Assembly (NCBI GenBank): GCA_021770755.1
Contig: JAETQI010000030.1
Span: 1-55,682 of the forward strand
Source of the DNA: Lachnospiraceae bacterium
GTDB taxonomy: Bacteria > Bacillota > Clostridia > Lachnospirales > Lachnospiraceae
Length of the DNA stretch: 55,682 bases
Direction: 5' to 3'
A program made the position numbers and the translations under genes. A model generated the notes under the pieces. The model made no database searches, was not told where the DNA came from, and saw nothing but the letters and a program-made list of their open reading frames with translations. Below are positions 9,988-55,443 of this stretch, piece by piece (the first letter of the stretch is position 1; each line of letters starts with the position of its first letter).

Positions 9988-9988
9988 A

Positions 9989-19686: not shown

Positions 19687-19820
19687 ATCGCAGTAAATGG
19701 GAAAAATGCACAATAAACGGCGGCGATATAAGTCCGGGACAGAAGTGAATTTTATAAAAGTGGATAATTTTAACAGGCAAAATTCGTCAACATTGCAATA
19801 AATATCAAAAGACAAATAGA

Positions 19821-19849
19821 TTGCTTTTTTTTTAACAATGTGATAAAAT
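19821..19849 (+). promoter_or_regulatory. promoter with Rex-like operator ahead of the butyrate operon
   Basis: TTGCTT (19821-19826), a 17-bp spacer and TAAAAT (19844-19849) form a promoter. TTGCTTTTTTTTTAACAA (19821-19838) has a perfect right half of the Rex consensus TTGTTAA-N4-TTAACAA, and the left half matches four of seven. Repressor bound here would cover the -35. The 372-base gap 19687-20058 otherwise holds AT-rich leader without a gene. Confidence 0.45.
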
Positions 19850-20073
19850 AAGCACAATGGTTGTGGTTCATATAAAAAAGAGCAGAATTAGAATACTGCA
19901 CAAATGATTTGCACAATAAAAAGTTACGTTTAGAGAGATTGCAAAAAAAGTTTGTGCATTTTTCATGATTTTCCAGCTTTTGTTATAAAAATCACAGTCA
20001 CAAGGAAACTGACAGGCGGATGCAAAGACAGCGGAAGCCTGTTGTGAGAGTATAAAAAATGGAGGAAAAGAGA

Positions 20074-21258
20074 ATGGCAAAGAAAATTGTATTAGCAGGT
20101 GCATGTCGTACAGCAATCGGCACTATGGGCGGCTCGCTCAGTACAACTCCGGCTCCGGAGCTTGGAGCGATCGTGATCAAGGAGGCTCTGAACAGGGCGG
20201 GCGTTCCGGCTGACAAGGTGGATCATGTATATATGGGCTGTGTTATCCAGGCAGGACTGGGACAGAATGTTGCCCGTCAGTCTTCGATCAAGGCAGGACT
20301 TCCCATCGAGACACCGGCGGTTACGGTGAATGTTGTGTGCGGTTCCGGTCTGAACTGCGTGAACATGGCTGCCCAGATGATCCTGGCTGGCGATGCTGAT
20401 ATCGTAGTGGCGGGTGGTATGGAAAATATGTCCATGGCTCCTTTTGCACTTCCTAATGCACGTTTCGGCTATAGAATGAACAACGGAGTGCTGGTAGATA
20501 CCATGATCAAGGATGCGCTCTGGGATGCGTTCAATGATTACCACATGATCCAGACAGCGGACAATATCTGCGACGAGTGGGGGATCACACGCGAGGAGCT
20601 TGACGCGTTTGCATTGAAGAGCCAGCAGAAGGCGGAGGCCGCTCAGAAGTCGGGTGCGTTTGACAAGGAGATCGTACCTGTGATGGTCAAGAAGAAAAAA
20701 GAGATGGTAGAGTTCAAGGTAGACGAGGGACCAAGGGCAGGATCCACGATCGAGGGGCTTGCAAAACTTCGTCCGATCAACAAAGATAAATATGTCACAG
20801 CAGGCAATGCATCCGGCATCAATGACGGTGCGGCTGCGATCGTAGTCATGAGCGAGGAGAAGGCAAAGGAACTGGGCGTGACACCGATGGCAGAGTGGGT
20901 TGCAGGCGCACTTGCAGGTGTGAGACCGGAGGTTATGGGTATCGGGCCTGTCGCAGCGACCAAGAAGGTTCTGGCTAAGACTGGCATGAAGATCGAGGAT
21001 TTTGATATCATCGAGGCAAACGAGGCGTTTGCGGCACAGTCGATCGCGGTGGGCAGAGATCTGGGGATCGATGTGGATAAGCAGTTGAATCCGAACGGCG
21101 GCGCGATCGCGTTAGGCCATCCGGTAGGCGCTTCCGGATGCCGTATCCTGGTCACACTGCTTCATGAGATGGAGGCAAAGGACGCGAAGACGGGTCTTGC
21201 TACATTATGTATCGGCGGCGGTATGGGCTGCTCTACAGTTGTTAAGAAATACGAATAA
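20074..21258 (+). CDS. thlA: acetyl-CoA C-acetyltransferase (thiolase)
   Basis: A 394-aa enzyme that condenses two acetyl-CoA to acetoacetyl-CoA, the first step of butyrate synthesis in the cytoplasm. The nucleophile Cys89 lies in [10 protein letters not shown]. The C-terminal catalytic blocks are [17 protein letters not shown] (His) and IGGGMGCS (Cys). The start at 20074 is chosen because GGAGGAAAAGAG precedes it; an ATG at 20059 lies ahead of that site. It leads a six-gene operon on the same strand with 27-105-base gaps and no clear terminator until after etfA. A Rex-like site upstream suggests repression at low NADH/NAD ratio. Confidence 0.95.
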
Positions 21259-40644: not shown

Positions 40645-42348
40645 GTGACCTGCAAAGAACGAATCTTGTCGAATGACTATGCGGACATCCTGGGAGATGT
40701 CATCTTAACGGGAGATTACGAGTTTGATCTGCCGTTTGACTACTGTTTTCATCAGATCACGCAGGACATAGGTATCTTATACATAGAGCGGAGCAGTACA
40801 GAAAATTATCCGATGGGGCAGCGTGCATACTCGCTGACACCGAAATGCTATGGGCTGATGGCATATGGGGAAGAGTCCGTGCTGAGGGCGGCGCAGGACA
40901 GGAATCTGAATACGCTTGCCCTTGCGGCGTCCGGGATCCTGTCCGTGCAGGGAGAACCGCTGAACCTTACCGGAAAAAATGTGACGATCGGTTTCATCGA
41001 TACGGGAATCCGCTATCAGGATCCGGTTTTCAGGGATTATGCAGGCAAAAGCCGTATTGTGGGGATCTGGGATCAGACGATCCAGACCGGCACGCCGCCC
41101 GATGGATTTGAGTTTGGTACGGAGTACACAAATGAGCAAATTAACGAGGCGCTTGCAAGCGACGACCCGCTTGGCGTCGTGCCAAGCACCGACGCGAACG
41201 GTCACGGGAGCGTTATGGCAAGTCTGGCGGCGGGAAGCTTCATTGAGAACAACAGTTTTTCGGGGGCGGCGCCGGACTGCCGGATCGCGGTCGTGAAGCT
41301 CAAAGAAGCAAAACAGTATCTGAAAGATTATTACAAGATCCCGCCCGGTGTTCCCTGCTACAGCGAGGCTGATATCATGCTGGCGATACAGTATCTGCAG
41401 AGATACGCGCTGCTGCTGACGAGGCCGCTCGTGATCTGCCTCGGAGTCGGAACGAGTCTCGGAGACCACACAGGCGGAGGTATGCTTGGCAATTATCTCA
41501 ATTATATCAGCACACAGAAAAGCAGGGTGTCCGTGGTCGCCGGCGGAAATGAGGGCAACAGCGCGCATCATTTTTTCGGACAGATCAGAGAGCGCGAGGT
41601 GTATCAGGACGTAGAGATCCGCGTGGGGGAAAACGAGAAAGGCTTTATCATGGAGCTGTGGGGGGATGCGCCCTATTTTTATAATGCGGTGATCCGGACG
41701 CCCGGCGGGGAGACTGCCCGCTGGAACAATCCCCGCAGCTATGTCCCGCAGGAGTTTACGTTTGTCTATGAAAAAACCAGGATCGTGATCGAGTATCAGT
41801 TGGTGGAATCCCTGTCGGGGGCGGAAGTGATCCGGTTCCGGTTTTCCGATCCGACGCAGGGAATCTGGAATATCCGGATCAATTCGGAGGGAAGCGCGAT
41901 GGGCGGACAGTTTGACATCTGGCTTCCGATATCTGATTTTCTGTCATCAGATACGTATTTTCTCGAATCGAATCCCTACACGACGATCACAGAGCCAGGG
42001 TATGTGCACAGCGCGGTGACGGTGGCAGGCTATCAGATCAGCAATAACAGTATCGCCGCGTCCTCGGGGAGAGGGAATGCGAGAGACAACTATATCGTTC
42101 CCGATATCGCCGCGCCGGGGGTGGGGATCTCCACGCCGTTCGGGGACAGGAGCGGGACCAGCGTGGCGGCTGCGATCACGGCAGGCGGCTGCGCGCAGCT
42201 CATGGAGTGGGCGGTCGTGAACCGCAACGACATTCTCGCTAATTCGGTCAATATCAAAAACTACCTGATCAGAGGTGCCGGGCGCGACGATTTTTTGGAG
42301 TATCCAAACAGGGAGTGGGGGGCGTGTGGTAATATAGTGTCAAGTTAG
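40645..42348 (+). pseudogene. Csp-like S8 serine protease, 3' end cut off by an integrated element
   Basis: Starts at GTG behind GAGGTAAG. It has a subtilisin triad: Asp in IGFIDTGIRY, His in DANGHGSVMASLAAG and Ser in SGTSVAAAITAGG. A large beta insert before the serine resembles the jelly roll of clostridial Csp proteases. The frame is normal as far as Asn-Arg-Glu-Trp-Gly (42307-42321), then leaves the family for Ala-Cys-Gly-Asn-Ile-Val-Ser-Ser and stops. The expected ending Tyr-Gly-Arg-Leu-Asp-Val and on is found in frame at 51490. The protein made now is 567 aa and lacks the last 20 native residues; activity may be kept or lost. The rejoined gene would encode 579 aa. Confidence 0.85.
42310..42347 (+). 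other. attL: left junction of the serine recombinase element
   Basis: Protease codons end in a run of six G (42317-42322). Then GCGTGTG (42322-42328), TAATATA and TGTCAAGTTA (42338-42347) belong to the element. GCGTGTG and TGTCAAGTTA are the reverse complements of CACACGC and TAACTTGACA at the right junction. Confidence 0.7.
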
Positions 42349-42468
42349 CAAGGAGCTTTACTTTTTGAAATTTCCCTACTCGATTAGACAAGATATACAA
42401 AGCAGGCATATTTTACAATACAAGAGAGGTATTGGACATTTTGGGAAAGCAGACTTACAATTTATTTA

Positions 42469-42490
42469 ATCCCCTTTGGGGATTTTCCTC
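42469..42490 (+). terminator. short terminator-like hairpin ahead of the aldo/keto reductase
   Basis: AATCCCC pairs with GGGGATT around TTT, followed by TTCCT. It lies 40 bases before the reductase start and could stop read-through from the protease or attenuate the reductase. The stretch 42349-42468 is otherwise AT-rich with no gene. Confidence 0.5.
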
Positions 42491-42528
42491 AAGGAAAGGT
42501 TTCCTGCACGCCGGGAAAGGAGCAGCAT

Positions 42529-43566
42529 ATGAAATACACAAAACTGGGAAATTCAGAGTTGAACGTATCCCGTATCTGCATGGGATGCATGGGGTTTGGA
42601 GATGCGGCAAACGGACAGCATTCGTGGACGCTTGATGAGGAACATTCCCGTGAGATCATCAGGCATGGCCTGGAGCTTGGCGTCAACTTTTTTGACACGG
42701 CAATCGGTTATCAGAGCGGCACAAGCGAACAGTATGTGGGAAGGGCATTGCGGGATTATGCAAAGCGTGACGAGGTGGTTGTGGCGACAAAATTCCTGCC
42801 CCGCACACAGGACGATATTGCAGCGGGAATGACTGGGCAGCAGCATGTCCAGCGCATGATAAATAAGAGCCTTAAAAATCTGGGTATGGACTATGTGGAT
42901 TTATACATTTACCATATGTGGGACTATCAGACGCCGCTTTACGATATCATGGAGGGGCTGAACAATATTGTTAAGGCGGGGAAAGCAAGGTATATCGGCA
43001 TTTCCAACTGTTTTGCATGGCAGCTTGCAAAGGCGAACGCATTGGCGGAAAAGGAGGGATTTGCAAAGTTTGTTTCCATCCAGGGGCATTATAACCTGAT
43101 CTTCCGCGAGGAGGAGCGGGAGATGGCGAAGCTGTGCGCGGAGGACAATATTGCCATGACGCCGTACAGCGCGCTTGCAGGTGGGCGTCTGTCAAAGGCT
43201 CCCGGCGAGACTTCAAAGCGTCTGGAGGAGGACAGTTATGCAAAATTCAAGTACGATGCAACCGCAGGGCAGGACGGCGTGATCATTGGGCGTGTGATGG
43301 AACTGGCAGAAAAACATGGCGTATCCATGACGGAAATTTCCCTTGCGTGGCTGTTGTCAAAAGTGACGGCTCCGGTGGTCGGGGCGACAAAGCTGCACCA
43401 TATCGAAGGCGCGGCTAAGGCGGTCGACCTGATTCTTACGGAAGAAGAAACCGCATATCTGGAGGAGCCGTATGTTCCCCATGCCCTTGTAGGCGTTATG
43501 GCACAGAATACGGTTTCGTCAGCAAAGGAGAAACATGTTTGGTCTACTGGAAATCAGAAAATATAG
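42529..43566 (+). CDS. aldo/keto reductase
   Basis: A 345-aa NADPH-dependent reductase. The tetrad can be seen as Asp-Thr-Ala with Tyr in NFFDTAIGYQSG, Lys in VVVATKFLP and His in DLYIYHMWD. C-terminal cofactor blocks include APVVGATKLHHIEGAAKAV. It is probably cytoplasmic and reduces carbonyl compounds; the substrate is unknown. AAAGGAG precedes the start. It forms a pair with the decarboxylase-like gene 12 bases on. GC content is close to that of the chromosome. It is cargo of the element. Confidence 0.88.
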   Translation: MKYTKLGNSELNVSRICMGCMGFGDAANGQHSWTLDEEHSREIIRHGLELGVNFFDTAIGYQSGTSEQYVGRALRDYAKRDEVVVATKFLPRTQDDIAAGMTGQQHVQRMINKSLKNLGMDYVDLYIYHMWDYQTPLYDIMEGLNNIVKAGKARYIGISNCFAWQLAKANALAEKEGFAKFVSIQGHYNLIFREEEREMAKLCAEDNIAMTPYSALAGGRLSKAPGETSKRLEEDSYAKFKYDATAGQDGVIIGRVMELAEKHGVSMTEISLAWLLSKVTAPVVGATKLHHIEGAAKAVDLILTEEETAYLEEPYVPHALVGVMAQNTVSSAKEKHVWSTGNQKI

Positions 43567-43578
43567 GAGGATGAGATT

Positions 43579-43899
43579 ATGGTTAAGCAGACGGCAGGAA
43601 GGGATCAGCTTGGGGAATTTGCCCCGAAATTTGCACAGTTAAATGATGATGTATTGTTTGGCGAGGTATGGAACAGGGAGGAAAAACTCTCGTTGAGGGA
43701 CCGTTCCCTTGTGACAGTCGTATCGCTGATGGCGCAGGGGTTAGTGGATTCTTCGTTCCAGTATCACCTGATGAGCGCAAAAAATAACGGGATCACAAAA
43801 GAGGAAATCGCCGAGATACTGACCCATGCGGCGTTTTACGCAGGATGGCCGAAAGCATGGGCGGCATTTAAGATGGCGAAGGAGGTCTGGACGGATTAG
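43579..43899 (+). CDS. carboxymuconolactone decarboxylase family protein, 106 aa
   Basis: A small all-helical protein of the AhpD/CMD fold: FGEVWNREEKLSLRDRSLVT, then GITKEEIAEILTHAAFYAGW, which is the family core. There is no Cys-x-x-Cys, so a peroxidase role is unlikely. It is often found next to aldo/keto reductases and oxidoreductases, as here. It is co-transcribed with the reductase behind AGGAGG. The function is unknown. Confidence 0.85.
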   Translation: MVKQTAGRDQLGEFAPKFAQLNDDVLFGEVWNREEKLSLRDRSLVTVVSLMAQGLVDSSFQYHLMSAKNNGITKEEIAEILTHAAFYAGWPKAWAAFKMAKEVWTD

Positions 43900-44232
43900 G
43901 GCAGGAGAGGAAACCATGAAGGACTGCACTGGAATATGGTACTGGGGCTGTTTCGTATAGTTTGCGGTGGACTGGTTTTATTTTGGGATCAGCCGCCGCA
44001 TTTTATGGGGCATGGTTTTTCGTAAAGAGAGATTTTTTTATTTATTTGTATGGCGTGTTCGGCCACATGAAGCGCCGCAGTCCTTACGGGGATTGCGGCG
44101 CTTTTGCGTTTGACACAAGATCCCCCGTTGTGCAGGGCTTTTCATTCCGGTGGTATAGGGAGGAACAGAGTTTTTGTGATAAGACAACCTTAACAGGAAA
44201 TAGAATATAGAAAGACGGTCAAGGGGCAGGAT
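43900..44232 (+). other. gap with gene remnant and terminator
   Basis: A ribosome binding site and ATG at 43917 start a short broken frame. Another frame reads LGLFRIVCGGLVLFWDQ, which looks like the start of a membrane protein and then stops, so this is probably a decayed gene. A terminator follows at 44069-44104. Bases 44110-44232 show no other feature. Confidence 0.4.
44069..44104 (+). terminator. terminator ahead of the DUF6870-type gene
   Basis: AGCGCCGCA (44069-44077) pairs perfectly with TGCGGCGCT (44092-44100), followed by TTTTGCGTTT. It isolates the cargo genes from the recombination module. Confidence 0.85.
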
Positions 44233-44502
44233 ATGGAACTGACAAGGGAAAAGTTACAAGAGATGGCGGCTGTGGATATACGAAATGTGGATATTAACAG
44301 CCTGACGGATTTAAGGGATATTGTGGTTGACACGAAAAAGACCGTTCCCCAGAAACTGGCCTCTTTTGCGGCGCAGACCAATAACGTATACATCCACCGG
44401 ATCGGGGACTATATCGTGAAAGTCCGTTTCATGGAAGAAGGGCCGACCATTGACGATAAGATGGAGGAATATTTAAGGCGGCTTGCGGAGATACATATTT
44501 AA
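44233..44502 (+). CDS. small DUF6870-type protein upstream of serine recombinase triplet 2
   Basis: An 89-aa protein homologous to that at 7733. Shared points are DIRNVD, Leu-x-Asp-Ile/Asp, VVDT/EIDT, a Gly-x-Tyr-x-Val-Lys-Val-x-Phe strand and the ending Glu-Tyr-Leu-Arg-Arg. It is acidic at the N-terminus and probably forms a small alpha/beta fold. AAGGGGCAGGA precedes the ATG. It ends 70 bases before recombinase 1. Being retained with the triplet in two unrelated islands, it may control integration or excision; this is inference. Confidence 0.75.
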   Translation: MELTREKLQEMAAVDIRNVDINSLTDLRDIVVDTKKTVPQKLASFAAQTNNVYIHRIGDYIVKVRFMEEGPTIDDKMEEYLRRLAEIHI

Positions 44503-44572
44503 ACCGGATGGAAGCCGATTGTCCTTGAAAGAGCGGAAAAGTTATGTTGATCTAAAGTCAGGGGTGATACAG

Positions 44573-46252
44573 TTGAAAGAAAAACAATTCTATGCGGCCA
44601 TGTACCTTCGTCTTTCAAAGGAAGACACCGATATGGATATCAGGGGCAGTTTCAATAAGTCCGAGAGCAACAGCATCGGCAACCAGAGGGAGCTCATCAA
44701 ATCATTCTTAAGGGAACAGCCGGACATAGAGCTTTACGACATCTATGTGGACGACGGCTTCTCAGGGAGCAATTTCGACAGGCCAGAATTTAAGAGGATG
44801 ATCGGCGACATTGAGGCAGGCAGGGTGAACTGCGTGGTAGTGAAAGACCTGTCTCGTTTCGGGCGCGATTACATTGAATCCGGGAGGTACATACAAAAGA
44901 CTTTCCCGGCTCTTGGTGTGCGCTTTATTGCGCTTACCGATCATTTTGACAGCATATCGGCGGATACGGGGGAAAGCTCTATTGTCCTGCCGGTAAAGAA
45001 TTTCATAAACGATTCCTACTGCCGGGATATTTCCACAAAGGTAAAGAGCCAGCTTGAAATAAAACGCAGGAACGGGGAGTGTGTATCTGCCTTTGCCGTT
45101 TATGGGTATCAAAAGAGCGGCACAGACAAGAACAGGCTGATCATTGATGAATATGCGGCGGAGAACGTGCGGCGGATTTTTGCATGGAAGATTGAGGGAA
45201 TGGCGGTTTCTGCGATTGCGGAAAAGCTGAACAGCCTCGGTATCCTCTCCCCAAAAGAATATAAAAAATCAATGGGGCTTCACTATCACAGTGGCTTTTC
45301 CGGGGCCGGGAGCAGCGTGTGGGGAAACGCTACCGTAAAACGGATACTGACCAATGAGGTCTATCTGGGTCATATGGTTCAGGGGAAAACAGAGAAGGTA
45401 AATTATAAAGTAAAGAAGCATACCGCCAAACCAAAGGGAGAATGGGTGAAAGTAGAAAATACCCATGAAGCAATCGTTTCCGCCGATGATTTTGCGGTAG
45501 TACAGCACCTGCTCAAAACAGACGGGCGCAAAAGCCCGGAATCCGGGACACTGAACCCTTTTGCGGGAATACTGTTCTGCGGCGACTGCAGCCAGCAGAT
45601 GATAAGGCGGGTGATACGTTATAAAGATACTGCAAAAGATTATTACATCTGCTCTACAAAGAACCGTGGGGAAGGATGCAGCAGGCACAGCATAGAGGAA
45701 AGCGTACTGAAAGAGATCGTCAGTGAGAGTGTCCGGAAGTTTGCCAATTCGTTCCTGAAAGAAAAGGAGCTTTCTGACCGGGCGGTGCAGTATGAGACGA
45801 ATTTTGAGGCGGTTGCCCGGTATGACAAAGAGATCGGGCGGCTGAAAAAAGAGCAGGATAAATATTACGCCCTCTGCTCCGGCTTATATGAGGATTTAAG
45901 GGAGGGCGTTGTCACAAAGGAAGAATTTGAACGTCTGCACAGCGGCTTTACGCAGAAAGGGAAGGAGCTGGAAGCTGCCATGCAGAAGCAGGAGCAGCTC
46001 ATTAAAGAGATGTTCAAAAAAGGGGCGCTTTCTGCGGGACGGCTGAAAACTTTTCAGAATTGTGTGGAACTGAGGGAGATAGACCGGTATACGCTGAGCA
46101 GCCTTGTAAAGCGGATTGATGTTTATGAAGACAGGCAGGTCGTGATCGACTTTTATTTTATGGATACGTTTGCTGTCATGGCAGGGATTGGCCGGAAAGT
46201 TCTGACGGACAAGACGGCGAAAGCACAGACGGCAGAAAGTGGAGGAGCCTGA
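44573..46252 (+). CDS. large serine recombinase, first of triplet 2
   Basis: A 559-aa protein from a TTG at 44573, five bases after AGGGGTGA. Earlier in-frame codons cross a conserved promoter-like stretch and are unlikely to be translated. Catalytic Ser15 is in YLRLSKEDTD, and the arginine block is VVKDLSRFGRDYIESGRY. The zinc ribbon uses CGDCSQQMIRR and CSTKNRGEGC, and a coiled coil lies at residues 400-490. It corresponds in order and sequence to the gene at 8311. Its TGA overlaps the next ATG (TGATG). Confidence 0.9.
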   Translation: MKEKQFYAAMYLRLSKEDTDMDIRGSFNKSESNSIGNQRELIKSFLREQPDIELYDIYVDDGFSGSNFDRPEFKRMIGDIEAGRVNCVVVKDLSRFGRDYIESGRYIQKTFPALGVRFIALTDHFDSISADTGESSIVLPVKNFINDSYCRDISTKVKSQLEIKRRNGECVSAFAVYGYQKSGTDKNRLIIDEYAAENVRRIFAWKIEGMAVSAIAEKLNSLGILSPKEYKKSMGLHYHSGFSGAGSSVWGNATVKRILTNEVYLGHMVQGKTEKVNYKVKKHTAKPKGEWVKVENTHEAIVSADDFAVVQHLLKTDGRKSPESGTLNPFAGILFCGDCSQQMIRRVIRYKDTAKDYYICSTKNRGEGCSRHSIEESVLKEIVSESVRKFANSFLKEKELSDRAVQYETNFEAVARYDKEIGRLKKEQDKYYALCSGLYEDLREGVVTKEEFERLHSGFTQKGKELEAAMQKQEQLIKEMFKKGALSAGRLKTFQNCVELREIDRYTLSSLVKRIDVYEDRQVVIDFYFMDTFAVMAGIGRKVLTDKTAKAQTAESGGA

Positions 46253-48000
46253 TGGGGAGAGTGTCAAAGAGGACTTTTGCCCCTGCTGTAGCGGCGAAAG
46301 AAACGAAAAAACGTTATAAAGCCGGTATTTATGCAAGGCTTTCATCAGATCAGGACAGAGATCCCTTGAAAGGAAACAAGGGCTCAAAGAATGAATCCGT
46401 GGAAGTACAGGTAAAGATTGCAGAAAAGCATATCGAAGAACTGAACCGGGAAGGGACAGAGCGGATAGAAATCATAGACCGTTATACAGATCTGGGGAAA
46501 ACGGGAAGTAATTTTGAACGTGGCGAGTTTCAGAGGCTTATGCAGGACATACGGCTGGGTGCCATTGACTGTGTGGTGGTCAAAGACCTTTCCCGCTTTG
46601 GCAGGAACTATCTGGAAACGGGGAATTATATTGAGAAAATCTTCCCGTTTCTGGGTGTCCGCTTCATAGCGGTTGCAGACGGACTGGATACGGGACACCG
46701 GGGAAGCGACACAAAGCAGATGGCAATGGAGATAAAAAACCTTGTCAACGACATGTATGCAAAGGATTTTTCCATAAAGGCAAAGCAGCATTTCAGGCAG
46801 AGACGGCAGGAAGGCTCCTATGTGGGAGGACCGCCGCCTTACGGCTACATAAGCGTCATGACAGGCGGAGCCTGTCATGGGAATAAGAAGATACGGAAGC
46901 TGGTGCCGGATGAAAATACTGCGGAGATTGTAAAGCATATTTATAAGCTGTTTATTGAAAGGGGAAGCTATGCGGCGGTGGCGGATGACCTCAACAGGAA
47001 AAAGATCAACCCGCCCTCTATATATAGGAAAACCGGAAAAGTCTTTTTTGACCCGGAACAGGGGGAATACAAGGGCTGGGATAAAGGCTCTGTGGAGCGT
47101 ATCGTGAAAAGTGAGACATACACCGGGAAGCTGGTGCAGGGACGGACTTCCATCACTGCAAGGGACGAGAAAAACCGTATCCACAAAGCGGAGGAAGAAT
47201 GGGTAGTCAAAGAAAACACCCACGAACCTGTTATTGATGCGGCGGTGTTTGCGGAAGCTGCAAAAGTGAGGGAAAGGCTCCATGAAAGGACGAAGTCCCA
47301 TGCCAATCCGACAGAGGGCTGTCCGATTGGGGAGAACATTTTTGACAGTGTGCTTTACTGCGGCGTGTGCGGCAGGAAAATGACACGGCATAGTTATGTA
47401 AAGACCCATGCGGACAGCAGGAAGGCGAGGCTGGACGGTTATTTCTGTTCAAATGGTGGGCAGACGAAAGTGGAGTGCTGCCCTGCATCAAACCGTATTT
47501 CAAAGGCGGAACTGGTGGATATTCTGTTACCGCTCCTTACAATGGAGTTTTCCGTGTATTTAGGGAAGCAAAAAAAATATACGGAGATTGTGAAAGAGCA
47601 GCTCTGGGAAGCCCAGGCAGGGATTGACGCAAAGGTAAGGAAAGCGGAAAGGGATATTGCCGCCGTAAAAGAGGAAGAACGGACAAAATATGTGGAATAC
47701 CGGGAGGGAAGTATCACCCAGAGTGAATACGCTGCTTATAAGATACGGCAGGAGGGCAGGTTGAAAGACTTAAGCCGGCAGAAGGAGGAACTGGAAGCTG
47801 GCAGGAAGAACCTGGATATTGTATCAGGGAAATACCTTGCGGCGGTCAGCGCCCTGCTCCGGTTAAAAAGCGGCAGGGCGCTGACAAAAGAAATGATAGA
47901 ATCCCTGATCCGGAAGATTTATGTCTATCCGGTGAAGCGGGTAGAAGTACAGTTTGCCTATACGAATGAACTGCTGGGGGAGGTGCTTGCAAATGGATAA
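46252..48000 (+). CDS. large serine recombinase, second of triplet 2
   Basis: A 582-aa protein with a basic N-terminal extension, as in the second gene of triplet 1. Catalytic Ser31 is in IYARLSSDQD, and the arginine block is VVKDLSRFGRNYLETGNY. The recombinase domain contains a PPYGYISVMTGGACHG insert. The zinc ribbon uses CGVCGRKMTRH and CSNGGQTKVECC. The start lies behind GTGGAGGAG. The stop overlaps the start of the third gene by eight bases, so the set is translated together. Confidence 0.9.
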   Translation: MGRVSKRTFAPAVAAKETKKRYKAGIYARLSSDQDRDPLKGNKGSKNESVEVQVKIAEKHIEELNREGTERIEIIDRYTDLGKTGSNFERGEFQRLMQDIRLGAIDCVVVKDLSRFGRNYLETGNYIEKIFPFLGVRFIAVADGLDTGHRGSDTKQMAMEIKNLVNDMYAKDFSIKAKQHFRQRRQEGSYVGGPPPYGYISVMTGGACHGNKKIRKLVPDENTAEIVKHIYKLFIERGSYAAVADDLNRKKINPPSIYRKTGKVFFDPEQGEYKGWDKGSVERIVKSETYTGKLVQGRTSITARDEKNRIHKAEEEWVVKENTHEPVIDAAVFAEAAKVRERLHERTKSHANPTEGCPIGENIFDSVLYCGVCGRKMTRHSYVKTHADSRKARLDGYFCSNGGQTKVECCPASNRISKAELVDILLPLLTMEFSVYLGKQKKYTEIVKEQLWEAQAGIDAKVRKAERDIAAVKEEERTKYVEYREGSITQSEYAAYKIRQEGRLKDLSRQKEELEAGRKNLDIVSGKYLAAVSALLRLKSGRALTKEMIESLIRKIYVYPVKRVEVQFAYTNELLGEVLANG

Positions 48001-49570
48001 ACTTGCTATTTATCTGCGGCTTTCCCTGGAGGATGCGCAAGCCATCGCAGATGGCTTTGATAAAGACGAAAGCAACAGTATCAGCAGCCAGAGGGTGCTG
48101 CTCCACGCTTATATACGCGGTAATGAGGAACTGCGGGGAAAAGAGGTCTCCGAGTTTTGTGATGACGGCTATTCCGGCACAAGTATGGAAAGGCCGGGGA
48201 TGCAGAGGCTCTTAAAAGAGGTAAAAGACAATAAAATCGGGTGCGTGATCGTCAAGGATCTGTCCCGTTTTTCAAGGGACTATATCGAGCTTGGAACCTA
48301 TATGAACCAGATATTCCCCTTTATGGGGGTGCGTTTTATCGCGGTAAATGACCGTTACGACAGCCGCGACCATGCAGGAAGCACTACCCCTATTGATACA
48401 GCTTTTCAGACACTTTTGTATGACTTATACAGCAAGGACATATCCGTAAAGGTCAGGACTTCGGTTGAAAATAAATGTGCGAACGGGGAGTATGTTTTCG
48501 GACAGGTTCCCTTTGGGTATGAAAAAAGCAGTGAAATTAAAAATACGGTTGTGGTGAATGAAAAGGAAGCGGAGATCGTGCGGTATATCTTTGCCCTTGC
48601 ACTTGACGGCAACGGAAGTACACAGATCGCAAGGATTCTCAATGAAAAGGGGATACCCACGAAAACACAGATACGCCATCCAGAGAGGACAGGGAAAAGC
48701 GGCAGGATGCAGGCGTGGGATAACGTCTCTGTCCGAACCGTCTTAAATAACCGCTTTTACTTGGGTGAGATGGCCTATGGGAAGTCAAAGCGCAAATTCG
48801 TGGGCAGTAAAGGCGGTATCGCTGTGCCGATGGAGGATTGGAAAGTGATACCAGATCACCATGAGCCGCTTATTTCACCGGAAGATTATGAAAAGGTATG
48901 TCTTTTCCGCAAAGGGGCAAACACGGCCAGAAAAGGGGAGAAAAATCCGCTTGTGGGGAAACTCTTCTGCGGCGGATGCGGCTATTCCATGACTTATAAG
49001 CCCATACGGGGAAAGAATAAATACCGCAGGTTTGAGTGCCGGAAACATGCTGTTTTGCAGATACCGGAGTGCTGTACCTGCTTTTCCTCTGATTTGCTGG
49101 AGGAAACGGTGCTGACCATGCTGAACAGGGAACTGATGGTGCGTGGAAATGCAGCAAAGGAGAATCAGAGCCTTGTTTCTTTCCAGAAGTCTTGTATCTC
49201 GAGGTTAGAAAAGAGGACAACGGAGTGCCGGGGCAGGAAAAAGCAGCTTCAAGCGGAGGCGGATGTCCTGTATGAAAGCTATGCGCTTGGAATAATCCAG
49301 GCCGTATCCTACAGGCAGCAAGCGGACAGAATAAAGGAACAGGTTGCTTTACTGTCGGCAGAGGAAGAAAAGCATGGAAAAGAACTGGAACAGTTCCGGG
49401 AGGAATACCACAGGACAGAGGAAGATATGAAGCAGGTCATACAGTATTCCCATTTAGAGGTGCTGACGCAGGAAGTGGTTGATATATTTATTAAGGAGAT
49501 ATATGTCTATAAAGACAAAAGAGTTGAAATTCAGTGGAATTTCCGCGAAAATGGGAAGGAGACAGAATGA
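47993..49570 (+). CDS. large serine recombinase, third of triplet 2
   Basis: A 525-aa protein. The ATG at 47993, behind GGGGGAGGTG, is preferred to a codon 39 bases upstream. Catalytic Ser11 is in YLRLSLEDAQ, and the arginine block VKDLSRFSRDYIELGTY has Ser in place of the usual Gly. The zinc ribbon uses CGGCGYSMTYK and CRKHAVLQIPECC. A coiled coil follows. The stop overlaps an ATG that opens a truncated fourth frame. Domains are complete, so the element may still be mobile. Confidence 0.9.
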   Translation: MDKLAIYLRLSLEDAQAIADGFDKDESNSISSQRVLLHAYIRGNEELRGKEVSEFCDDGYSGTSMERPGMQRLLKEVKDNKIGCVIVKDLSRFSRDYIELGTYMNQIFPFMGVRFIAVNDRYDSRDHAGSTTPIDTAFQTLLYDLYSKDISVKVRTSVENKCANGEYVFGQVPFGYEKSSEIKNTVVVNEKEAEIVRYIFALALDGNGSTQIARILNEKGIPTKTQIRHPERTGKSGRMQAWDNVSVRTVLNNRFYLGEMAYGKSKRKFVGSKGGIAVPMEDWKVIPDHHEPLISPEDYEKVCLFRKGANTARKGEKNPLVGKLFCGGCGYSMTYKPIRGKNKYRRFECRKHAVLQIPECCTCFSSDLLEETVLTMLNRELMVRGNAAKENQSLVSFQKSCISRLEKRTTECRGRKKQLQAEADVLYESYALGIIQAVSYRQQADRIKEQVALLSAEEEKHGKELEQFREEYHRTEEDMKQVIQYSHLEVLTQEVVDIFIKEIYVYKDKRVEIQWNFRENGKETE

Positions 49571-49773
49571 GGGCAACGATATACGAAAGAGTAGGAAATC
49601 CGGATCAGGTGGCAGTCCAGAATCAGACAGAGGTGCTGACAGGAGGCCCGGTCTGCAAAAACGGTTGCAGAGTGCTGGGACAGATTCTACTTGTAAATAA
49701 CAGAAAAATGATTATAATAATTATTAGATTAGAATATAATTTGAATTGGTTGGAGGATATATTATGTTTGTAG
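49567..49773 (+). pseudogene. truncated fourth frame coupled to recombinase 3
   Basis: It starts in an ATGA overlap with the preceding stop. Only the first 25 residues look meaningful: RATIYERVGNPDQVAVQNQ resembles the beginning of a small resolvase (Ile-Tyr-x-Arg-Val, Asp-Gln, Gln-Asn-Gln), although the catalytic Ser is replaced by Gly. After about 49640 the frame becomes low complexity (Met and a run of Ile) and overlaps the next gene. It is probably the remnant of a further conserved gene cut by recombination. Confidence 0.45.
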
Positions 49774-51098
49774 AAAACAAGACAACTGAATTCAAGCGAG
49801 AATATGTGGAAGATATTAAAAATACGATTGTTGCCTTTGCAAACTGTGATGGTGGTACACTTTATATCGGAGTGAACGATGATGGAACAGCTTGTGGCGT
49901 CGATGATGTCGATGATACTATGTTACGTGTAACCAATGCAGTTAGGGATGCTGTGCGGCCAGATATTACTATGTTTGTGGAATGCCGTAATGATGTAATG
50001 GACGAAAAGGCAATTGTATGTGTAATTGTCCAGCGCGGTACGGCAAGACCGTATTATCTGCAAGGAAAAGGAATCCGCCCGGAGGGTGTTTATGTTCGTC
50101 AGGGAGCATCGACAGTTCCGGCAACAGATACCGCTATCCTGAATATGATCAAGGATACCAGTGGTGACAGTTATGAGGCGGCTCGCTCTCTCGATCAGCA
50201 TCTTACTTTTAATAAAGCTGTCGATTTCTTTAGTAAACGGAAGGTAGAATTTGGAAGAACTCAGATGCGTTCACTTCACCTGATTGGCGAAGATGGTATG
50301 TACACAAATCTGGCATTTTTGTTGTCTGAACAGTGTACACATATGATCAAACTGGCTGTTTTTGAGGGGAGTAAGAAATCTATATTCAGGGATCGACAAG
50401 AATTGTCGGGTTCCCTTTTAAGTCAGATGGAGGAAGCTTTCAATTATATTGATCGTTACAATCGTACCCGTGCAGAATTCTTAGGACTGGACCGGTTAGA
50501 CATGAGAGATTATCCCACGGAGGCAATTCGTGAGGCACTACTGAATGCAATCGTCCATCGGGACTATTCTTTTAGCGGTGCTACGCTTATCAGTATTTTT
50601 GAGGACCGAATTGAATTTGTAACCATTGGTGGTTTGGTGAAAGGTATTGCATTGGATGACGTGATGCTGGGAGTGTCCGTGTTGCGCAATCAGCATTTAG
50701 CGAATATTTTCTATCGTCTGAGACTGATTGAAGCATATGGTACAGGGATTCTTAAGATCAATGAATGTTACGATAATTATGTTGTGAAACCTGTGATCGA
50801 AACAACAAGTAATGCTTTTAAGATTACGCTTCCCAATACCAACTTCCATGCAGACGAACAAAAAGCTCAAAATATCCTTAGAACGGGTGGAGTTACCAGT
50901 GCGACAAAAAAGGAAGAACGAATTAATACTGTTCTGGAACTGTGTCGCAGTAAAGGTTTTCTTGTTCGTAGTGATGTAGAAACGGAACTTGGTGTGTCCC
51001 AATCTACGGCAATCCTGCTTTTGCGAGAGCTAACTGACGAGGGCGTATTGATTAAAAAGGGAAAGACTAAAAACCTGCGATATTACGAGAATAAATAA
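49764..51098 (+). CDS. AlbA_2 (Schlafen-type) / HATPase_c_4 transcriptional regulator-like protein
   Basis: A 444-aa protein; start at 49764 behind TTGGAGG. Residues 1-110 form an AlbA_2 putative nucleic acid-binding domain: NKTTEFKREYVEDIKNTIVA, then FANCDGGTLYIGVNDDG. Around residues 250-340 is the GHKL-like ATP-binding C-terminal part: YPTEAIREALLNAIVHRDYS, ISIFEDRIEFVTIGGLVKG and RLIEAYGTGILKI. The last 60 residues are a winged helix (RSDVETELGVSQSTAILLLR). Such proteins occur often as accessory genes on mobile elements. A role in regulation or defence is possible but unproven. Confidence 0.8.
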   Translation: MFVENKTTEFKREYVEDIKNTIVAFANCDGGTLYIGVNDDGTACGVDDVDDTMLRVTNAVRDAVRPDITMFVECRNDVMDEKAIVCVIVQRGTARPYYLQGKGIRPEGVYVRQGASTVPATDTAILNMIKDTSGDSYEAARSLDQHLTFNKAVDFFSKRKVEFGRTQMRSLHLIGEDGMYTNLAFLLSEQCTHMIKLAVFEGSKKSIFRDRQELSGSLLSQMEEAFNYIDRYNRTRAEFLGLDRLDMRDYPTEAIREALLNAIVHRDYSFSGATLISIFEDRIEFVTIGGLVKGIALDDVMLGVSVLRNQHLANIFYRLRLIEAYGTGILKINECYDNYVVKPVIETTSNAFKITLPNTNFHADEQKAQNILRTGGVTSATKKEERINTVLELCRSKGFLVRSDVETELGVSQSTAILLLRELTDEGVLIKKGKTKNLRYYENK

Positions 51099-51470
51099 AG
51101 GAACGGTTGAAATTATGCCATTCAAATATGAGCGTGAAATTAACCAGTTTCGCATCAAAAATACTTAGGTAAAGATGGAGGCGAGGATATGCCTACGTTA
51201 AGTGAGATATTTGATAATTTGGCTAAATTATCCCGGTCATTATCGGACGCGGCAGGTTGGGGCAGGTAGTTGAAGTGTTTGGGAATAGATCGATATGTGC
51301 TGAGTAGGAGCATGGCGAGAATTGCAGAGAAGATTGTTTCGGACATTTCAACTTGACAATAATTTATCTCCAATTTTGCCCCGACGTAGCAGTAATTTAC
51401 CACACTTCCCACGAAGTTATGCGCCTTTCAGCGATTTTCATGTGGGAAAAGTGAAAAAAGTTTGTGACAT
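51099..51470 (+). other. gap at the right end of the element with two micro-frames
   Basis: Two short frames have fair ribosome binding sites: 51115-51168 (17 codons) and 51189-51269 (26 codons, MPTLSEIFDNLAKLSRSLSD, behind GGAGGCGAGG). Neither is recognised. The second may be the start of a lost gene. AAGTTATGCG near 51416 recurs near 54353. Nothing else is seen. Confidence 0.35.
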
Positions 51471-51489
51471 TAACTTGACACACGCGGGG
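51471..51489 (+). other. attR: right junction of the serine recombinase element
   Basis: TAACTTGACA (51471-51480) and CACACGC (51479-51485) end the element, followed by GGGG (51486-51489) and the protease codons from TAT at 51490. Together with the left junction this gives a palindromic attP of CACACGC, a G run and GCGTGTG. Confidence 0.7.
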
Positions 51490-51552
51490 TATGGGCGGCT
51501 TGACGTGGCGGGGGTGTTTGAGTTTCTGGCAGGGATCGGGCGTGGGGTATAG
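51487..51552 (+). pseudogene. displaced 3' end of the S8 protease gene (copy 1)
   Basis: It encodes GYGRLDVAGVFEFLAGIGRG, then Val and a stop. It continues the protease frame from Trp-Gly at 42316-42321 with the Gly codon shared, so one cut and join would rebuild the gene. No start codon or ribosome binding site belongs to it. Confidence 0.75.
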
Positions 51553-51569
51553 GGATTCAGTGGTCTGAA

Positions 51570-51785
51570 TTACACACGGGCACCAATGTGAAACACCGTA
51601 TACAGAAGTTTTCGCATTGGTGCCCGCCGCATGTTGGTTCCATGACCAAAATCGTCGCGATAAGCCACTGGAATACGATACTTATTACCAAATCTTTTCA
51701 GTTTCTCAACCAATAGCGGCGAAATTTCATCGGAATAATGTCCAAATATCAGCCCTGTTACGTGTTCCATTACGAATATAATCGG
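51570..51785 (-). pseudogene. C-terminal fragment of an LD-carboxypeptidase (peptidase S66)
   Basis: The reverse strand encodes TGLIFGHYSDEISPLLVEKL, then a segment with RIPVAYRDDFGHGTN, which fits the last third of S66 peptidases, including the catalytic His in FGHG. The end Ile-Gly-Ala-Arg-Val also fits, but an insert made of a palindrome interrupts the link. The catalytic Ser and Glu regions are missing, and the DNA upstream is unrelated, so this is a relic. It lies beyond the protease junction and before the ABC operon. Confidence 0.55.
51576..51626. repeat. strong inverted repeat inside the S66 peptidase fragment
   Basis: CGGGCACCAATG (from 51577) pairs perfectly with CATTGGTGCCCG (to about 51626), with further pairing of GAAAC and GTTTTC inside. 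It overlaps the reverse-strand peptidase fragment exactly where the conserved His-Gly and Asn should be followed by Pro-Ile-Gly. Confidence 0.6.
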
Positions 51786-51852
51786 TTAACGTTCCCGCGA
51801 CCAAATGCGGGACAGATTGTTTTTAATCCTGGGTCTGGCTCGTCAGGGGGTG

Positions 51853-52566
51853 CTATTTATCCATTTTTCGTAACAGAATACTACACATTACGGCAGCTAA
51901 GCTAAAAATCAAAAGTAGCGGCAAAAGGTTTTCAAACTTAAAAACATTTTCTGTCATTAGTCTATACCCCCATGCAGCCGGAAATAGTTTTCCTGCTGTT
52001 TCAAAGGCTTTGGGAAGTAATTCAATCGGAAACATAATTCCAGAAAGCATGATTGACGGTAAAAAAACAATAATAGAAAACATAGATGTTTTTGCAGGAT
52101 CTTTTACTGCCAGACCAATGATACTGGCAATACTAAGAGATACCGCGATAAAAACAGCAAGGCTGATGAAGTACTTCCCCGGATTTTCCGGTATTTCAGC
52201 TTGAAAAATAAGCGGCGCGGCAATATATAAAATAATGCTCATAAGGAACAAATGAATATATGCTGAAATATTGGTTAAGGCAAGCCCTAAGATTAACGGG
52301 ACACCATTCGCCTTGTAAACCTTTTTAATATCGCTGCTGTAAATTTCAACAAGAGAGGGCGGCAGACCGATCAATGCCCCCATTGTCACACCAAATACGG
52401 TCATTGACTGAATGAGCGTATATCTCGCTTCTGGCATGACGGATGTAAAGATACCGCCCATAATTGCAAAGAACAAAAGCGGCACGATATAGCAGGTGAT
52501 AAGTAATGTCTTACTCCTTATATCTAACTTCCATTGTAAAGAAACCCCGTACAAAAAAGCGCCCAA
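51853..52566 (-). CDS. ABC-2 type transporter permease
   Basis: A 237-aa membrane protein with about six hydrophobic segments, starting with LLITCYIVPLLFFAIMGGI. The ABC-2 signature region VFLPSIMLSGIMFPIELLPK lies near residue 185, before the last helix. It forms an exporter with the ATPase encoded two bases upstream in transcription order. The substrate is probably a drug or lipid-like compound, judged from MerR-linked relatives. It is last in the operon; no clear terminator was fixed behind it. Confidence 0.88.
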   Translation of the reverse strand: MGAFLYGVSLQWKLDIRSKTLLITCYIVPLLFFAIMGGIFTSVMPEARYTLIQSMTVFGVTMGALIGLPPSLVEIYSSDIKKVYKANGVPLILGLALTNISAYIHLFLMSIILYIAAPLIFQAEIPENPGKYFISLAVFIAVSLSIASIIGLAVKDPAKTSMFSIIVFLPSIMLSGIMFPIELLPKAFETAGKLFPAAWGYRLMTENVFKFENLLPLLLIFSLAAVMCSILLRKMDK

Positions 52567-52568
52567 TG

Positions 52569-53378
52569 TTATTCCCCCTTTGCGATTTTTATAAAGTGTT
52601 GTTCCAGTGAACCGCGGTCTATCTGAATATCTGTGATAGTTTCTCCTTTTTTTCTGTACTGCATCAGCAGCGAAAGCAGAGAATCCCCAATATTTTCTGA
52701 TTCATATCGTTCAGTTCTATTTTCAGTCTGGATTGTGATATGATAATGCTTTCCCATTGTTTTGCCTAACTGTTCGACAGTCCCGATAAAGGCAATTTTG
52801 CCGTCGGAAAGTATGGCGATCCGGTCACATAACTTTTCAACCTCTGCCATATCATGGCTCGCTAATATGATGGTCTTTCCGATTGCTTTTAACTGGCGGA
52901 TCTGTTCATGTAGAGCTATCTGTCCCTCAACGTCAAGTCCTGCGGTTGGTTCATCAAGGAACAGAATATCCGGATTTCGTGTCAGGGCAAGTGCCAGATG
53001 GAGCCGCCGCTTTTGCCCAGTTGATAATTGATAATACGGCTTTTTGGCAAGTTCATAAATACCGAGAGCGTCAAGCGCTGCTCTGTCAGGAGAGGTCTTA
53101 TTCCATTTGGCAAACAGCTTTACAGCTTCCAGTACTTTGATGTACTTCGGCAAAGAAGCCGATTGCAATTGAATGCCCATGATCCCATTTATGGCAATGC
53201 GTCCGCTGTCATATTTTCTTAAGCCCTCGATACATTCAAGGGATGTGGTCTTGCCTGCGCCATTGATGCCGAGCAGGGCAAAGATCTCTCCTTGCTGTAC
53301 GCAAAAATCTAAACCTTTCAGTACAGCGTGCGTTCCATAGCGTTTTGTTAAGCTGCTGACTTTTATAGACTCATTCAT
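52569..53378 (-). CDS. ABC transporter ATP-binding protein
   Basis: A 269-aa ATPase with Walker A LLGINGAGKTTSLE, signature LSTGQKRRLHLALAL, Walker B ILFLDEPTAGLD and the switch His in ILASHDMAEVEKL. The C-terminal 60 residues are an extra domain common in ABC-2 exporters. It overlaps the end of the MerR gene by four bases, so the three genes form one transcript. Paired with the permease it should drive efflux at the cell membrane. Confidence 0.92.
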   Translation of the reverse strand: MNESIKVSSLTKRYGTHAVLKGLDFCVQQGEIFALLGINGAGKTTSLECIEGLRKYDSGRIAINGIMGIQLQSASLPKYIKVLEAVKLFAKWNKTSPDRAALDALGIYELAKKPYYQLSTGQKRRLHLALALTRNPDILFLDEPTAGLDVEGQIALHEQIRQLKAIGKTIILASHDMAEVEKLCDRIAILSDGKIAFIGTVEQLGKTMGKHYHITIQTENRTERYESENIGDSLLSLLMQYRKKGETITDIQIDRGSLEQHFIKIAKGE

Positions 53379-54187
53379 TTGGTTTCCTCCTTGCTGCCAC
53401 CTTGAAACGGGTCAATGCCTAAACGGGAAAAATAGACGCCTAATGCCTGTTCAACATACCCGTTAGCAATATCCTGAACCTCTTTCCATTTATGATCTGT
53501 ATTTTGAAACTGCCCTAATTCAATAAGTCTGGGAAGCATACTCATATCTCCGCCAGTGAAATCCGTTATCATATTCCAATAGGATTTTGCAAAGTTCTGT
53601 CCCTCATCACTATTTGCAGGAACACCTGCATTTTGAAGTCGTATTGCTTCGTTTTGAAGCTGCATGAAAGTGTTCATAAATGCCATTCCGCTGTCTTTAT
53701 CAAAGTGGCTGCGGATATGGTCAAGCGTCTGGTCATCAAAATGTTTGATCAGCCAATAGAAATCATTTTTCATCTGCAGATTCACAATAATATCAGCATA
53801 TTTTTTGAAATCAACTGACTGCATTTGAAGGACTTCCTCCCGCAGCACTTCCAATTCTCGCAATGATTCAGACAGGCTTTCTATTTTTTGTCTGACAACG
53901 TCTGCCTGCTCTGTGAGGACGTCGGCAATTTCAGCCGGTGTATCAAGCGGAATAAGCCGATTCTTTATATCGTCCAAAGAGAAGCCTAAATGTTTGAGGG
54001 ACAAAATCTGATGTAACTTTACGATGTCTTTATCTGTGTATAACCTACGCCCTCCTTCGCTCATGGCAGATGGGGAAAGCAGACCCTCTCTGTCGTAATG
54101 TTGCAATGTCCGTACAGTAACGTCCATTTTTCCTGCAATTTCACCAACAGTCATATAACCTTGTGGTATCGCTTTATATTGATCCAT
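53375..54187 (-). CDS. MerR-family transcriptional regulator
   Basis: A 270-aa protein from the ATG at 54187, which has AGAGGAGG upstream; an upstream in-frame ATG overlaps the promoter. The winged helix is typical: MTVGEIAGKMDVTVRTLQHY, then YDREGLLSP and GGRRLYTDKDI. A coiled coil at residues 75-120 and a helical effector domain of about 130 residues follow, like TipA-type sensors but not clearly one. It probably senses the exported compound and controls the operon it leads. Confidence 0.88.
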   Translation of the reverse strand: MDQYKAIPQGYMTVGEIAGKMDVTVRTLQHYDREGLLSPSAMSEGGRRLYTDKDIVKLHQILSLKHLGFSLDDIKNRLIPLDTPAEIADVLTEQADVVRQKIESLSESLRELEVLREEVLQMQSVDFKKYADIIVNLQMKNDFYWLIKHFDDQTLDHIRSHFDKDSGMAFMNTFMQLQNEAIRLQNAGVPANSDEGQNFAKSYWNMITDFTGGDMSMLPRLIELGQFQNTDHKWKEVQDIANGYVEQALGVYFSRLGIDPFQGGSKEETK

Positions 54188-54201
54188 GTCACACCTCCTC
54201 T

Positions 54202-54232
54202 GTATAGTATATCTCATTACGCTGCGTCACAA
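54202..54232 (-). promoter_or_regulatory. promoter of the MerR-ABC operon
   Basis: On the minus strand TTGTGA (54232-54227) and TACTAT (54209-54204) are 17 bp apart. An alternative -10, CTATAC, would give the 19-bp spacer usual for MerR-activated promoters. Confidence 0.45.
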
Positions 54233-54407
54233 GCAAGCACTTTTGTGAAGATTTTAGAAGGCGCATAGGAGCCGCTGATCAGGGAAGAATTATTAGCATG
54301 AATGTGCCATTAATTTCTGACTGGCTTGGCATTAATTCACCATCGGTTCTGTAAAGTTATGCGGCTTTTCGGGCTTTTGAAGAGAATTGCATTCTAACTA
54401 AATGCGC

Positions 54408-54926
54408 GATAGTGTAACTTTACTTGGGGAATTTAAAAAATAATAAGGGACACCTTGTGGAGGAGGCCCTGTAGGTTTTCCTTCAGACAGCACGCTTCTT
54501 TGTCTGTGAATGGCTGGAAGAATGCAATTCCCTTTTGGAATGCAGCGAGAAAGGGCGTAGATGCCGGTATATGAAAGCCCATGACCAGAAAAGTAACCTT
54601 ACGCCTATAGGTAGCATAACGTATAACCGTACCCGCTTCATCAATAAAGAGACAAAAGAAAATGCGTACTTGCCGGACAGGAGTCTCGGATAGGATCCGC
54701 ATACCCGCCTCAGTGACGGGACAAAGACAGGCATCTTAGAAGCAGCAGCCCAGTGTAGCCATGAAAAGGTCGGTGAAATCGCATGCCATGGAGAAGACCG
54801 GGTGGCAAAAAGACAGTGATGCTCCAGGTGCGGAGTATGGAAATGCCGCCGGAGGGGCGGGAGGAGACATCTGAAAAAAGGAAAGTGAAGTACCTGTATG
54901 AGGAGACTGACGAGGATCATATATAA
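54408..54926 (+). pseudogene. truncated and decayed ISLre2-family transposase with left inverted repeat
   Basis: The left end (54408-54432) equals the left end of the ISLre2 element at 13301 over 25 bp. The DNA behind it matches the start of that transposase (WLEECN, LLECS, PHTRLSDGTK, EDRV) but with several stops and frameshifts. The match ends at GAGGATCATATAT (about 54925), about a third of the way through the gene. No right end is found, so a deletion removed the rest. Ahead of it, 54277-54360 holds a fragment reading MNVPLISDWLGINSPSVL, like the end of a tyrosine integrase. Confidence 0.8.
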
Positions 54927-55330
54927 GCTGTTTGATGAAAATGAGAAAGGAATGTTTTGTAAATATGCTGTGTTTTATAGAGCAATCGGAGCAGAACAGC
55001 CGCTGAAAAGATTTGAACTCGATAATATTGAAAAACTGTCATCTCAGTAGATTAAGAGTGATCTAATTCTTGAGATTCGCAAGGGAAAATGATTTGATTT
55101 GGAATTGGTTCTGCAGAAAGTTAGGGAATGCGCCTATTCTAATACCAACAAGAGAGGAAGAACCGTTCTGGAAAGTCTTTTCAGAAGAAAGTTATCACCC
55201 AGATTGGATATTTGGAGATAGTAATGAGCTTGAAAACATTGCAAAGCATCCTATGGTATTGTGGAAGTGTGAAAATAAGACAGAAAATACGATGTCTTTA
55301 GATAAGAGAAAAGTAAGATTGCTGTAAAAC
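54925..55330 (+). other. two unrecognised open fragments
   Basis: The first (54925-55050) encodes LFDENEKGMFCKYAVFYRAI and on to a TAG, with no start of its own; it joins directly to the IS remnant. The second (55070-55327) has 85 codons from a TTG with no ribosome binding site and includes REEEPFWKVFSEESYHPDWI. Neither family is known to me. Both are probably pieces of genes broken by rearrangement. Confidence 0.3.
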
Positions 55331-55361
55331 GACCTGAAAAAGGCGAAAAAAGTTCATGACA

Positions 55362-55443
55362 TAACTTGACATCAGCGGGGTATGGCAGTCTTAACGTGGT
55401 TAGGGTGTTTGAGTTTATGGTTGGGATAGGACGAGGGGTGTAG
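55362..55443 (+). pseudogene. second att-like junction and diverged S8 protease 3' end (copy 2)
   Basis: TAACTTGACA (55362-55371), then TCAGC, GGGG and TAT repeat the layout of the right junction at 51471. The following 20 codons read YGSLNVVRVFEFMVGIGRGV with a stop at 55441-55443. This equals copy 1 in length, with 14 of 20 residues and 46 of 60 bases the same by eye. Confidence 0.7.

Follow-up and report, generated by a model that had tools for sequence, protein, structure and literature searches.

What has become of the Csp-like S8 protease gene in the 55,682-nucleotide stretch of Lachnospiraceae DNA analysed here (contig C101, hereafter the window), whose reading frame loses its family match near the end and whose missing tail lies downstream, behind three serine recombinase genes? 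The original prediction held that an element with a recombinase triplet had inserted into this gene between Trp-Gly and Tyr-Gly, and the occurrence of the same junction in relatives bears this out: a 9.2-kb element (approximately 42322-51485) splits the gene at that point. The idea of a gene-splitting element thus stands; its treatment as a single case was too narrow, as the element belongs to a family that uses two target motifs, carries varied cargo and has its units stacked. In all likelihood, this is a horizontally moving family of site-specific elements that is specialised on S8 protease genes and able to excise precisely. The window comes from a 4.74-Mb draft genome of 122 contigs, whose closest named relatives are uncultured Lachnospiraceae. 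Our family set comprised 397 Lachnospiraceae genomes, mostly drafts. The parts of the window that define the split are these:

40645..42321, + strand: 5' part of the protease gene, 559 codons to Trp-Gly (Pfam Peptidase_S8)
42317..42350, + strand: left element end (attL), with the G run, GCGTGTG and ATAGTGTCAAGTTAG
44233..44502, + strand: DUF6870 protein of 89 residues (PF21757), often encoded just 5' of R1
44483..46252, + strand: serine recombinase R1 (Pfam Resolvase, Recombinase, Zn_ribbon_recom)
46252..48000, + strand: serine recombinase R2 (Pfam Resolvase, Recombinase, zinc-ribbon)
47954..49570, + strand: serine recombinase R3 (Pfam Resolvase, Recombinase, zinc-ribbon)
51471..51489, + strand: right element end (attR), TAACTTGACA CACGC GGGG, with a similar end in other members
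51487..51552, + strand: detached 3' piece of the protease gene, GYGRLDVAGVFEFLAGIGRGV and a stop codon, opening in frame

In the protease frame (40645-42348), the family match ends at NREWG and is followed by the element-derived residues ACGNIVSS and a stop codon; as had been proposed, the missing tail resumes in frame at 51487-51552, and each of the three recombinases between the two halves carries the three expected Pfam domains in an open frame. A G run is common to both edges, with six G on the left (42317-42322) and four on the right (51486-51489). The complementarity of the ends noted in the original prediction was also found: CACACGC (51479-51485) and GCGTGTG (42322-42328) are exact complements, and TAACTTGACA, at 51471, is inverted at 42338. 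A third copy at 55362, together with a second, degenerate tail, had been missed. Three copies in the window compare with 0.07 expected, the longest inverted match between the left and right ends is 11 bases, and inverted matches of at least 10 bases occurred in only 2 of 2000 random window pairs of equal size, so that chance is an unlikely explanation. The element has three serine recombinases of its own, adjacent and in one orientation, a very short direct repeat in the form of the G run, and a disrupted target. Ccr models score 24-101 bits on the recombinases, against cut-offs of 700-900, which places them outside the ccr family. A Pfam scan of the seven main element proteins, small open reading frames (ORFs) lying outside it, found neither conjugation nor phage structural domains. 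Of the 15 other regions searched, 11 have a homologue of the DUF6870 protein (none in G322_C46, G075, G199 and G290, the regions of the first two starting close to a contig end), and its position makes it a candidate accessory or directionality factor.

The protease itself appears to be Csp-like. Its best solved relative is CspB (4i0w, E 1.6e-61), others among its best solved relatives are named germination-related or germination-specific proteases, and the NCBIfam CspBA and CspC models match it below their cut-offs. In the excerpted text of PMC8953710, Csp proteases activate a cortex-lytic enzyme in clostridial spores. The window genome encodes SpoIVA, and most genomes of the genus carry a second S8 gene at 32-39% identity. 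A fold model of the intact, related protease at locus L006 (mean predicted local distance difference test score, pLDDT, 80.5), used only for placing the breaks, positions the C-terminal break between a low-confidence loop (552-558), which it closely follows, and the last helix (565-572). A second break described below, at Asp-Thr-Gly, falls directly after the strand ending at Asp119.

Does the site exist without the element? The L006 protease, 90% identical to that of the window, has GAGTGGGGGTATGG with five G at the empty site; by our own arithmetic, a single exchange within the run can turn the six left-hand and four right-hand G of the window into five in both products. The original prediction would have been undermined by empty sites that did not rejoin, and what relatives show is unoccupied sites that are continuous exactly at the codon. 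Of 67 protease loci, 25 were read at the site; three of these (L010, L018 and L022) are occupied and the others continuous, mostly as Trp-Gly-(Tyr/Phe)-Gly. Within the genus, 30 copies were read, from the window and 29 relatives: 27 are intact, one of them readable only to a contig end just past the site, and 3 are occupied (the window, G017 and G033); G001 and G010 carry the gene, with no locus obtained. (Loci correspond to genomes as follows: L010, G017; L051, G373; L082, G033; L105, G342; L195, G359; L221, G341; L225, G290; L230, G397.)

The junction recurs. The left-end pattern ATAGTGTCAAGTYAG occurs at 8 places in 7 genomes of the family set. At 7 of these places, one of them the window, it follows immediately on Trp-Gly or Val-Gly in an S8 protease frame. 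The eighth, in G342, is not part of an S8 gene and was regarded as a chance match. Among the 67 protease loci, the pattern is also found at L010, L018, L022 and L051, with a variant in G033, and a stricter left-end pattern returned only four known places of the family set. In all, the window junction is present at L010, L018, L022, L051 and L082 and at six more places of the family scan (the genome of L051 being among these); attL-type ends at the same codon were read at L010, L018, L022, L051, L104 and L106-L110, and with variations at L082 and in G232. Identity to the window protease ranges from 31% to 84% among the occupied proteases. Both sides of a related insertion are seen in G290, a single contig in which the S8 gene breaks off at YPNREVGYG and resumes with its tail 23.7 kb on, behind a triplet; this insertion was first taken for one in a different target and later shown to be in an S8 gene. 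A left-end scan of IMG/VR returned 52 stretches, two of them with a G run before the motif and both unconvincing, and no phage or circle form. In plasmid and phage collections (39 and 20 records, E up to 1e-50), the R1 relatives are all below 60% identity.

We then read targets from the recombinase, searching with R1 instead of the end motif to avoid selecting by the latter. The search of the 397 genomes (E up to 1e-180) gave 15 matches and that of 35 relatives (E up to 1e-150) gave 5, including the window. Seventeen distinct matches have at least 52% identity, and 13 of them have a readable right end; outside these 13 are G322_C48, G199 and G298, without a readable right end, and G003, which was not followed. 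Twelve of the 13 right ends open into S8 protease genes and one into an M23 peptidase gene. The C-terminal motif Gly-(Tyr/Phe/Trp)-Gly is the target in nine cases (the window, G373a, G232, G017_C8, G075, G290, G407, G322_C46 and G359) and Asp-Thr-Gly in three (G373b, G190 and G035).

This second motif is the target of a related branch, hereafter clade B. Using R3 of G190 as the query, we obtained 10 matches in the family set, and all eight with a readable end open into an S8 gene at Asp-Thr-Gly (G298 and G437 are without one). Seven do so directly: G190, G035, G373, G309, G251, G331 and G341, the last in a subtilisin of another type; in G397, the protease comes after a second tandem unit. Both halves are present in G331, in which a first piece of approximately 104 residues ending in Val-Asp-Thr-Gly is followed by an 8.2-kb element and the remainder of the protease, and in G341, in which the first piece ends in VAVLDTG and the protease resumes approximately 5 kb on, after a DUF6870-like frame and a triplet. 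The G341 element (approximately 8550-13570 of its locus) is compact, with little beyond these genes. In G373, one protease gene is split twice, at Asp-Thr-Gly by one triplet and between Trp-Gly and Phe-Gly by another.

As a control, we considered eight distant triplets (R1 at 38-46% identity), picked from among search matches and including L203. Four have a readable right end, and none of the four is in an S8 gene: their targets are an M23 peptidase gene (a second triplet in the window), one unidentified frame found twice (G009 and G017_C30) and an enolase-like frame in G290. A fifth case was left uncounted: in G322_C40, the end lies before an integrase-like frame and is doubtful. A midpoint-rooted tree of 26 R1 proteins sets the eight distant ones apart with a support of 0.997. 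The Asp-Thr-Gly branch has a support of 1.000, its placement relative to the G290/G199 branch being unresolved (0.647); the near group also includes G081, the M23 case, and three unread members. R1 of the window is 90% identical to R1 of G322, which belongs to another genus, and the element therefore moves between genera. G322 has its occupied S8 genes on two further contigs, at 48% and 31% identity to the window protease.

Some observations concern the distant triplets themselves. The enolase-like frame of G290 (approximately 7800 of its locus, - strand) was named by eye. The second element of the window, at 7619-19686, comprises a DUF6870 gene and a triplet (recombinases at 8311-13296), and its right end, ACTTGACA at approximately 19138, leads in frame into an M23 peptidase gene that is truncated; the same gene is split in G081, at another codon. 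Beside this end, an 823-residue protein (16586-19057) has an N-terminal TIR domain (TIR_2, ThsB_TIR) and is possibly defence cargo.

What does the element carry, and does it stand alone? Its remaining genes, and the DNA that follows the detached tail, are as follows:

42529..43566, + strand: cargo, aldo/keto reductase (PF00248)
43579..43899, + strand: cargo, carboxymuconolactone-decarboxylase-like protein (PF02627)
49746..51098, + strand: Schlafen/AlbA_2 and RecG-C-type ATPase protein (PF04326, PF13749)
51553..55361: second unit, in which no recombinase was found
51853-52566, - strand: ABC-2 permease, second unit
52569-53378, - strand: ATPase, second unit
53375-54217, - strand: MerR regulator, second unit
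54927-55330: degenerate ORF, second unit
55362..55380, + strand: second, orphan right end, TAACTTGACA TCAGC GGGG
55378..55443, + strand: orphan, decayed copy of the protease tail, GYGSLNVVRVFEFMVGIGRGV and a stop codon

Cargo behind the same left end varies and includes CobQ-type cobalamin and FecCD transport genes (L022), a response regulator (L018), an actin-like protein (L010) and a RepA_N replication protein (G407). At L022, the cobalamin-synthesis and FecCD-type transport genes lie inside the occupied protease, at 12138-21046. We had considered 51553-55443 to be ordinary neighbouring DNA, a view that the second right end at 55362 argues against; the final stretch of the second unit is common to L008 and L014. 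A guess would be that the second tail copy came with the capture of a composite circle. At L008, the protease gene is intact, and 2.1 kb beyond it a degraded copy of the tail (13852) follows a damaged right end, the scar of an earlier element. In G397, two clade-B units lie in tandem (5674 and approximately 16650), the right end of one joined directly to the left end of the next; in the second, a search for genes yielded a chemotaxis-like set (names by eye) and no recombinase. Window position 55362 and the G397 junction both show units in tandem at a single attachment site, and from the arrangements in the window, L008 and G397 it follows that units stack and decay at the protease site. A further stacked array is seen in G359 (reverse strand, oriented positions 12393 and 13863), with two successive right ends and a DUF6870 piece between them.

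Is the split gene still maintained? In the window, the 20 codons of the detached tail show no amino-acid and 11 silent codon differences from L006 (2 and 12 from L008, 3 and 7 from L009), that of G017 has 1 and 6 relative to L009, and that of G373a, over 18 codons, has none and 4 relative to L043, one of the latter being the stop codon. The orphan tails have 6 amino-acid and 5 silent differences (window compared with L006, 20 codons) and 3 and 7 (L008 compared with its own gene). Using a purpose-written codon model on terminal branches, with gapped columns dropped, we obtained an omega of 0.054 for occupied and 0.052 for empty genes among the window and its close relatives (14 genes, 551 codons; twice the log-likelihood difference, 2dlnL, 0.05), and 0.085 and 0.041 in a second set (8 genes, 440 codons; 2dlnL 9.8). 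The second set suggests some relaxation of occupied genes, and the clean tails would fit use after excision and recent insertion equally well.

We propose that a set of three serine recombinases moves an integrative element, joining its circular form to Csp-like S8 protease genes at a conserved word of their coding sequence. This word would be the DNA for Trp-Gly-Tyr-Gly before the last helix here and that for the catalytic Asp-Thr-Gly in the related branch. Exchange would take place within the short G run common to both partners, and the reverse reaction should therefore restore the gene in frame. Recombinase-free units can adjoin a recombinase unit, and orphan right ends persist after the loss of parts. 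The junctions, the empty sites, their recurrence, the target preference, the spread between genera and the stacking of units are seen in the sequences themselves; we infer activity of the recombinases, a need for all three, an accessory role of the DUF6870 protein and excision of the element.

Might the element instead be a developmental switch, whose excision in sporulating cells, as for skin, SP-beta, gin and yin, turns the germination protease gene on at the proper moment? SpoIVA in the host genome, CspB as the closest solved structure and the precedent of gin in gerE, a non-phage element with three serine recombinases excised in sporulation (PMC5595907, in excerpt), would all suit such a role, as would the detached tails (0, 0 and 1 amino-acid differences, compared with 6 and 3 in the orphans) and the similar omega of occupied and empty genes among the close relatives of the window. 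However, sporadic presence (3 of 30 same-genus copies), diverse cargo and spread between genera are those of ordinary mobile elements, the second gene set is mildly relaxed, recent insertion explains the clean tails just as well, and the Csp function in these hosts is itself a prediction from sequence. We regard a switch as possible but unlikely. A wider proposal, that the triplet group consists of reversible switches of germination proteases in gut Firmicutes, with the G373 gene made whole by one or two excisions, probably in sporulation, is similarly doubtful.

A static disruption, that is, a fixed insertion of an immobile element into a protease that is dispensable or works without its last 20 residues, seems quite improbable. 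The truncated frame does have its own stop, in the model the break adjoins a low-confidence loop that precedes the last helix, and a second S8 gene is present in most genomes of the genus; nevertheless, three open recombinase frames, a detached tail that is undamaged while the orphan tail is damaged, and close recombinase relatives in other genera speak against immobility. As for an assembly artefact or a chance likeness, the 122 contigs of the draft might raise the thought, but the same junction in other assemblies and the two sides of the related insertion in single-contig G290 leave it practically no probability, and in our view this explanation is already refuted.

Several points weigh against a mobile family specialised on S8 genes. 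G081, a close member, is in an M23 peptidase gene, with both halves present. The targets of G407, G322_C46 and G359 were identified by motif only, from tails of 13-14 residues of the GYGALC-paralogue type, that of G075 from an 18-residue tail at a contig end, and those of G373b, G190 and G035 from the right side only. The window's own genome, with one left end and two right ends, yielded no excised circle or mixed site. Draft contigs are frequently broken inside such elements, and the R1 and G190-R3 searches of the family set scored the best three candidates per genome, so that the sets are incomplete.

The spore-gene-splitting elements in the excerpts of the cited papers are single cases with one target each. 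Here, a single recombinase group, spread over several genera of gut commensals, has the same enzyme family as its recurrent target, at the DNA of two of that family's most conserved motifs. This ties gene mobility to germination-type proteases, provides natural pairs of split and intact genes for probing developmental excision, and yields site-specific recombinases with defined protein-coding target words.

Among known systems, the skin element reportedly sits in sigK as a restorable insertion in a spore gene. The prophage-like yin element, with a single recombinase, lies in yabG, which also encodes a protease (PMC10747680; this and the other papers cited here are represented by excerpts). Our element resembles yin (PMC10747680) and skin in being a putatively restorable insertion, in a gene that is spore-related by prediction, and differs in having a triplet, whereas those two have one recombinase each and are prophage-like. 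In Bacillus cereus, gerE is interrupted by gin, which has three serine recombinases and is excised in sporulation by GirC with GirX (PMC5595907). With gin, the window's element shares its non-phage nature, three serine recombinase genes and a short shared core and, by prediction, a spore gene as target and in-frame rejoining; unlike in gin (PMC5595907), in which one recombinase excises and girC lies apart from girAB, the three genes are adjacent, and the family targets S8 protease genes and has close relatives in other genera. Serine integrase triplets of streptococcal integrative and conjugative elements (ICEs) disrupt mutT, traG and hsdM (PMC4701971). They have in common with our element three adjacent integrases in the same direction and gene disruption, the ICE repeats being 2-8 bp; by contrast, our targets are S8 genes at two motifs, and no conjugation domain was found in the scanned element proteins. 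Staphylococcal cassette chromosome (SCC) elements (PMC5595907) and the stacked Clostridioides difficile island 023_CTnT (PMC6814731) also combine serine recombinases with tandem units at one site, but have other targets, and the Ccr models score far below their cut-offs on our recombinases. A large survey of serine recombinases points to other preferred targets; S8 proteases are not named in its excerpted text, and the word "peptidase" is absent from the main text (PMC10083194). Among the open-licence PMC papers that our searches listed, we found no report of such elements in csp-like genes. Gene-splitting and triplet-driven mobile elements were known already, and what is new here is a family specialised on S8 protease genes as its target.

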